Part shown: positions 53,782 through 55,734 of the stretch, in pieces
Position numbering within the stretch: the stretch's first letter is position 1
How the letters are laid out: the number at the start of each line of letters is the position of its first letter
Assembly: GCA_024639455.1 (NCBI GenBank)
Contig: JAHEIH010000009.1
Location: 1-64,000 of the forward strand
DNA: 64,000 nucleotides
From: Cellvibrionales bacterium
Lineage (GTDB): Bacteria > Pseudomonadota > Gammaproteobacteria > Pseudomonadales > JAHEIH01
Reading direction: 5' to 3'
The notes under the pieces: model-generated
The model's input: the letters and a program-made list of their open reading frames with translations, nothing else
Database searches by the model: none
What the model was told of the DNA's origin: nothing
Position numbers and translations under genes: made by a program

Positions 53782-54627
53782 ATGGACCAAAGTACGGCAA
53801 CCCTCTACGTTGTGGCAACACCTATCGGCAACTTGCAAGATATGCAGCCAAGAGCGGTCGAAATCTTGCGCACGGTGTCGTTAATTGCGGCAGAGGATTC
53901 GCGTCACAGCGCGCCTTTATTGCGTCATTTTGATATAGCGGTCCCGGTTTGGGCCTACCATGATCACTCTGATCAGCACCGAACAGCGGCTATTATCGAG
54001 CGTCTGCAGGGTGGTGAAGATGTTGCGCTTATTTCAGATGCGGGCACGCCGTTGATTTCTGATCCAGGTTATCGTCTTGTGGATGCCGCGCATCAGAACG
54101 GTATTCGCGTATGCCCCATTCCGGGGGCCTGCGCTATGGTGGCGGCACTCAGCGCCTCTGGTTTGCCCACTGACCGTTTTCGTTTCGCCGGGTTTTTGCC
54201 TGCTAAGTCACAAGCGCGGATCAATGTGCTTTCGGGGTTCGAGAAGGTCTCGGATACATTGGTGTTTTATGAGGCGCCGCATCGTCTATTGGATACGTTG
54301 CGCGATATGCAGGTCGTCTATGGTGATGAGCGTGTAGTGGTGTTGGCGCGTGAGTTGACCAAGATGTTTGAGACCGTTCGGCGCCTGCCTTTGGCTGAGA
54401 TGGTGCAATGGGTGGCTTCGGACAGCAATCAGCAGCGGGGTGAGTGCGTGCTGTTGTTGAAAGGGGTTGTTGAGGAGGTGTCGTCGCTAACCCCTGAGGC
54501 GGAAAAGACCATGCGGGTTTTGGCGGAGGAGCTGCCATTGAAGCAGGCGGCAGCACTGGCGGCAAAAATTACCGGGCTAAAAAAGAATGCTCTTTACCAG
54601 TGGGCATTAGACACGTTGAAAACATAG
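53782..54627 (+). CDS. rsmI: 16S rRNA 2'-O-ribose C1402 methyltransferase
   Basis: RsmI (281 residues) methylates C1402 of 16S rRNA together with RsmH, whose gene is 1.1 kb downstream. LYVVATPIGNLQDMQPRAVE and DVALISDAGTPLISDPG are tetrapyrrole-methylase-fold SAM motifs. The ATG at 53782 is chosen by family alignment. Confidence 0.95.
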   Translation: MDQSTATLYVVATPIGNLQDMQPRAVEILRTVSLIAAEDSRHSAPLLRHFDIAVPVWAYHDHSDQHRTAAIIERLQGGEDVALISDAGTPLISDPGYRLVDAAHQNGIRVCPIPGACAMVAALSASGLPTDRFRFAGFLPAKSQARINVLSGFEKVSDTLVFYEAPHRLLDTLRDMQVVYGDERVVVLARELTKMFETVRRLPLAEMVQWVASDSNQQRGECVLLLKGVVEEVSSLTPEAEKTMRVLAEELPLKQAAALAAKITGLKKNALYQWALDTLKT

Positions 54628-54664: not shown

Positions 54665-55010
<346 letters not shown>

Positions 55011-55035
55011 TTCTTTTCCTGTTATTTAATCCTTT

Positions 55036-55060
55036 GAACTTAAAGTATCACTTTAAGTTC
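55036..55060. repeat. perfect 11-bp palindrome between rnpB and mraZ
   Basis: GAACTTAAAGT (55036-55046) and its exact complement (55050-55060) flank ATC. It lies 26 bases past rnpB and 118 bases before the mraZ -35. It could be a second rnpB terminator (weak T-run follows) or an operator. The rest of the 265-base gap holds the mraZ promoter and repeat array and no gene. Confidence 0.6.
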
Positions 55061-55177
55061 GTTTCTTATGCCTCTGAAATCCTTCTGTTTTTATTTTTTG
55101 TCCTGGTGATTTTTTGGACGTTCGTCGCCAATCCCCTCTCGATCGTGCATTTTGGCCACCATTTCCCGTTTTGAATC

Positions 55178-55206
55178 TTGACTTTTTGACTTTGGGGTCG
55201 CATAGT
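55178..55206 (+). promoter_or_regulatory. promoter of mraZ and the dcw cluster
   Basis: TTGACT (55178-55183), 17 bases and CATAGT (55201-55206) form the best sigma70 match; a second TTGACT at 55186-55191 is nearby. The -10 is inside the repeat array that probably binds MraZ. Confidence 0.5.
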
Positions 55207-55270
55207 GTCGCGAAGTGGGAGATTGTGGCATAAAGTGTCGTTTCTCAAAATTTTGGGTCGAAAAGTGGGG
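55195..55270 (+). promoter_or_regulatory. MraZ operator: 10-bp phased repeat array
   Basis: Hexamers of the form GKGKSG or close to it start at 55195, 55205, 55215, 55225, 55235, 55255 and 55265 (GGGTCG, GTGTCG, GTGGGA, GTGGCA, GTGTCG, GGGTCG, GTGGGG); only the 55245 slot is empty. E. coli MraZ is known to bind TGGGN direct repeats spaced by 5 bases before its own gene. Here the last unit overlaps the mraZ ribosome binding site (GGGGAAG, 55267-55273). Confidence 0.7.
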
Positions 55271-55275
55271 AAGAC

Positions 55276-55734
55276 GTGTTTAGAGGCGTATCACACATCA
55301 ATTTGGATGCGAAGGGGCGGATGGCTATGCCAGCGAAATACCGCGATCGCGTTGCGTCTGAATTTGGTGGGCAGATGGTGATGACCATCGATACCCAAAC
55401 GCGCTGCCTTTTGTTGTACCCGCTTTCAACCTGGGAGGTGCTGGAGAAACAGATCCAGGAACTGCCCTCGTTTGATCCATCGGTTAAACGCTTTCAGCGT
55501 CTAACTATCGGTTATGCGAGTGATCTTGAGTTGGATGGTAGTGGTCGCGTGCTGTTGCCGCAGACCCTACGCGACTATGCCTCGCTCGACAAGAAAATCG
55601 TCTTGGTGGGTCAGGGTAAAAAATTCGAGCTATGGAGCGAAGAGGCTTGGATGGAGAGTCGTGAGGCGTGGTTGGCTGAAGAGGCGGAAGGCGATTTGCT
55701 GGCTTCGGATGCACTGAAGAATTTGGCGATGTAA
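55276..55734 (+). CDS. mraZ: transcriptional regulator MraZ
   Basis: MraZ (152 residues) is an AbrB-like DNA-binding ring protein that represses the dcw cluster. Both DXXXR motifs are present: [15 protein letters not shown] near the N-terminus and [15 protein letters not shown] in the second half. The GTG start at 55276 lies after GGGGAAG. Its stop overlaps the rsmH start (TAATG). Confidence 0.95.

Follow-up and report, generated by a model that had tools for sequence, protein, structure and literature searches.

A predicted MraZ operator with four adjoining boxes and a phased detached box in front of mraZ of a Cellvibrionales bacterium

MraZ heads the division and cell-wall (dcw) cluster in many bacteria, and the way in which the MraZ oligomer reads an array of repeats is only now being solved. 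In the Cellvibrionales bacterium of assembly GCA_024639455.1 (contig JAHEIH010000009.1, positions 1 to 64,000; this whole 64-kb stretch is referred to as the window) mraZ is preceded by G-rich repeats in 10-bp phase. A sequence-only reading had taken them for an unusually long MraZ operator, which raises the question how many of the repeats are MraZ boxes, how they are placed and what they would do. We consider it very probable (about 0.93) that the array is the MraZ autorepression operator heading the dcw cluster, the core boxes and a probable helper role of a single detached box included. The parts are listed in Table 1.

Table 1. Predicted parts of the mraZ promoter and operator in the window. 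Bits refer to the box profile described in the text.
Feature	Position	Strand	Remarks
-35 hexamer TTGACT of predicted mraZ promoter	55178..55183	+	sole promoter-like site in 54980-55350
-10 hexamer CATAGT	55201..55206	+	17-bp spacing from -35; overlapped by box 1
MraZ box 1 CATAGTGTCG	55201..55210	+	7.4 bits; slot filled in 93% of 121 relatives
MraZ box 2 CGAAGTGGGA	55211..55220	+	8.8 bits; slot filled in 100% of 121 relatives
MraZ box 3 GATTGTGGCA	55221..55230	+	6.5 bits; slot filled in 98% of 121 relatives
MraZ box 4 TAAAGTGTCG	55231..55240	+	9.5 bits; slot filled in 74% of 121 relatives
Detached MraZ box AAAAGTGGGG	55261..55270	+	13.5 bits; 60 bp after box 1; overlaps GGGG ribosome binding site
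mraZ, 152 aa, GTG start	55276..55734	+	PF02381 twice

Judged by domain match, motif and predicted fold, the encoded protein is a member of the MraZ family. PF02381 has two domain matches over the cut-off (E 8.4e-15 and 4.2e-14), DAKGR and DGSGR are present as motifs of the D-x(3)-R type, and the model resembles the solved MraZ of M. pneumoniae and M. genitalium (TM 0.7-0.8, AbrB-like fold). The gene is followed by ORFs resembling the dcw genes rsmH, ftsL, ftsI and murE, and upstream lie an rsmI-like ORF (53782-54627) and the gene of the RNase P RNA (54666-55007, 337 bits); all these ORF names were given by inspection. A near-perfect hairpin, TGAACTTAAAGTATCACTTTAAGTTCG at 55035-55061 with T-rich sequence after it, is situated between rnpB and the mraZ promoter and probably represents the rnpB terminator. 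Within the order, 33 out of 293 genomes give no MraZ match (e.g. G036, G042, G052, G071). Among those listed most belong to the family codes f35, f36 and f42, a clustering pointing to lineage-wise loss of mraZ.

The 10-bp-phased GTG array before mraZ is real and far beyond chance. Read from 55195, the loose pattern G[GT]G[GT] fills seven of eight 10-bp slots in the mraZ upstream region. Apart from shifted readings of this array, no site in the 64-kb window has at least five of eight loose slots filled, and 20 dinucleotide shuffles of the window yielded zero sites with five or more. The 2.88-Mb genome as a whole has a single instance of four GTGs spaced by 10 bp, namely the mraZ array, and a genome search with a stricter three-box pattern likewise returned the mraZ array only.

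The extent of the array was judged by comparison. About 200 sequences around mraZ were gathered, mostly from the same order, of which 157 non-redundant upstream regions were kept; a 10-column box profile was built from 155 of these, leaving out the window and its nearest relative. The box consensus in the relatives is [A/T]A[A/T]AGTGG with a period of 10 and a near-invariant GTG. Scored in this manner, the core boxes starting at 55201, 55211, 55221 and 55231 reach 6.5-9.5 bits and the slot at 55241 is empty. The slots at 55191 and 55251, holding GGGT at 55195 and 55255, score -3.5 and -1.8 bits; both are devoid of the near-invariant T of GTG and their positions are not conserved. The profile was seeded with GTG triplets and favours GTG over looser forms, hence slot contents were also counted directly. 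With box 1 as anchor (slot 1), the loose pattern appears among 120 relatives in 5% at slot 0, in 10% at slot 6 and in 44-98% at slots 1-5, whereby TTGG, CTGG and ATGG occur at slots 4 and 5. By profile, boxes are found in 1% of the relatives at slot 0, 51% at slot 5 and 7% at slot 6, and slot 7 is filled more commonly than slot 6. The earlier count of seven filled slots out of eight holds for the loose pattern, but the profile accepts five. Seven boxes fitting the family consensus were not found, as two of the seven score below zero at positions that are not conserved. According to the profile, the MraZ boxes of the operator number five instead of seven, with a contiguous stretch of four (55201-55240) and a detached one (55261-55270).

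This bears on the proposal that seven sites wrap DNA once around the MraZ ring. The seven loosely filled slots would suit such an arrangement, as would the report that MraZ acts as an octameric toroid (PMC7761207), but the weak occupancy of slots 0 and 6 argues against it, the more so as the GGGT of slot 6 is lost even within the same genus. An arrangement of five sites interrupted by two slots gives no support to a full turn, and we consider a seven-site operator of this kind very improbable.

With regard to place, the array lies in the mraZ promoter and leader ahead of the dcw genes, starting on the -10 at 75 bp before mraZ. The predicted sigma-70-type promoter TTGACT-17-CATAGT spans 55178-55206, and TTGACTTTT at the -35 is kept in the closest relative. 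That the array overlaps the -10 (CATAGT, 55201-55206) was borne out. Among the relatives, box 1 overlaps an ATAGT -10 in 111 of 137 upstream regions with runs of at least three boxes.

In length the array is typical of its relatives and not, as claimed before, unusual. Contiguous runs of three, four and five boxes are present in 40, 66 and 31 of the 157 Pseudomonadales upstream regions, respectively; runs of four or five boxes thus account for 97 of them, and the window shows four plus the detached one. Class-wide, runs of three to five boxes were detected in 24 out of 31 regions. The array does reach the GGGG ribosome binding site, but this is common and also seen in E. coli K-12, where the mraZ upstream sequence carries four boxes by profile extending to the ribosome binding site. 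As to the outer repeats, the picture is mixed: slots 1-3 are near-universal in the order and the last box recurs in phase, slots 4 and 5 are partly conserved, and conservation is lacking at slots 0 and 6. In the nearest genome, which has the same genus code (Pseudomonadales bacterium isolate QJ.27, 84% MraZ identity), slots 0-4 are conserved and the slot-6 GGGT is lost; the detached AAGTGGG has kept its distance of 15 nt to the start codon but lies 2 bp further from box 1 (62 bp, against 60 bp in the window).

The interpretation as an MraZ operator is well supported, since the gene is mraZ and box, period and place agree with published operators. The mollicute MraZ site is (AAAGTGKN3)3, three boxes with a 10-bp period (PMC5282649; also PMC8475190), and the cryo-EM entries 9r4j and 9sz7 present M. 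genitalium MraZ in complex with its promoter and with one of four boxes. Box core and period are shared with the window, but the texts found on the mollicute site mention no phased detached box. In Burkholderia cenocepacia the repeats bound by MraZ number four, each of 7 nt and separated by 3-nt spacers, and lie downstream of the -10 (PMC7761207). Like this operator, the window has four 10-bp-spaced repeats before mraZ, located at the -10 or downstream of it, and it adds a detached box at the ribosome binding site. For E. coli, repression of the dcw cluster by MraZ is cited in PMC7761207. The K-12 operator, attributed to Eraso et al. 2014 in citing papers, shows GTGG boxes at 10-bp spacing before mraZ, reaching the ribosome binding site as in the window; there the boxes run without interruption from 48 bp before the start codon, whereas the array in the window begins at 75 bp and is broken by a two-slot gap. 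Set against a series of at least three AAAGTG[G/T] boxes at 10-bp spacing, the window holds four contiguous boxes and one detached. It is one ordinary example of the known MraZ operators.

G-rich repeats might also act without MraZ. A G-rich stretch downstream of the S. aureus mraZ promoter was reported to form a G-quadruplex (PMC11796246). In the window, however, runs of at least three G are few and mostly at least 10 bases apart, beyond usual G-quadruplex loop lengths, and the strict 10-bp phasing of GTG would be left unexplained. We attach next to no weight to this reading.

The detached box at 55261-55270 is the best-scoring 10-mer of the window, with no equal elsewhere in it. In the relatives, detached boxes fall 50-53, 60-62, 70-71 or 79-81 bp after box 1; between these distances none was seen at 54-58 and 74-78 bp and one at 64-68 bp. 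Of the 50 detached boxes above 5 bits, 46 (92%) lie in phase 0-2 of ten compared to 30% expected, and this share remains at 89-100% across cut-offs from 4 to 8 bits. The mean resultant is 0.76 versus 0.14 after shuffling the distances between sequences, a value as high being reached in 0 of 3000 shuffles, and the phasing persists when each of the 27 clusters formed at 75% identity is represented by a single sequence. A strict 10.5-bp phasing fits no better than 10.0-10.25.

The position of this box 15 nt before the start, its GGGG and the fact that many relatives have such units at their ribosome binding site would be in line with a mere Shine-Dalgarno sequence that resembles a box by chance. 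The detached box does resemble a Shine-Dalgarno sequence, and its conservation is therefore in part due to translation. Yet a Shine-Dalgarno sequence has no need of the GTG part, and the position is in phase with the core while the distance to the start codon spans the whole searched range of 10-25 nt. Moreover, detached boxes separated from the start codon by over 25 nt (31-86 nt) show the phasing too, which is therefore not solely a Shine-Dalgarno matter. Chance likeness as the full explanation appears unlikely.

The detached box could also be a relic: in an older array, longer and uninterrupted, the middle boxes would have decayed, leaving this one with an inherited phase and no present role. 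Tandem units can expand by slippage. The drop in occupancy at slot 5 and further at slot 6 resembles a decaying array. Against this stand the top score of the detached box, the higher frequency of slot 7 over slot 6 and the turnover in the family. Of the 101 relatives with enough space, 32 have a box at 59-63 bp after box 1, and at least 23 changes of the detached-box state are counted on a FastTree tree of MraZ, a rough number given that 28 of its 116 inner branches are well supported. The 59-63 bp box is thus not one inherited feature. A relic is a minor possibility, comparable to that of a chance Shine-Dalgarno likeness.

The phased detached box rather suggests an operator in two parts, read from one helical face. 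In such an autorepression operator each MraZ subunit would read one GTG box, and the four adjoining boxes at 10-bp spacing would be contacted on one DNA face from the -10 into the 5' leader. Bound in this way, MraZ would block RNA polymerase at the mraZ promoter and lower transcription of mraZ and the downstream dcw genes. Six turns past box 1 and facing the same side, the detached fifth box would probably provide an extra contact of the same or a second oligomer and strengthen repression. Its sequence would also serve translation start because it overlaps the ribosome binding site. The analysis itself shows the boxes, their phase, the overlap with the promoter, the uniqueness of the array in the genome and its conservation; that MraZ binds and represses here, and what the detached box does, we infer.

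Extended to the family, gammaproteobacterial mraZ operators may often be bipartite: an uninterrupted core that begins at the -10 and counts three to five boxes, combined with a detached box on the same face, removed from box 1 by five, six, seven or eight turns and in many cases part of the ribosome binding site. A single MraZ oligomer, or a pair of neighbours, would reach across core and detached box, steepening autorepression. We regard the odds of this generalisation as about even. A family-wide rule for the place of the detached box would be a concrete constraint on how the MraZ oligomer lies along DNA. The recurrence in relatives of a detached copy near the ribosome binding site on the same helix face appears mildly new; no mention of it was found in the small part of the MraZ literature covered, and the novelty is uncertain.

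Two further arrangements were observed among the relatives. In L004, L059, L151, L196 and L197 four-box arrays end within ~10 nt of the mraZ start codon, and the last box seems to stand in for the ribosome binding site. The arrays of L213, L229, L054 and L090 are split: a weak or empty slot separates a first group of two or three boxes from a second of two or three, which is in phase or one base off; in L054 and L090 a second ATAGTG is present.
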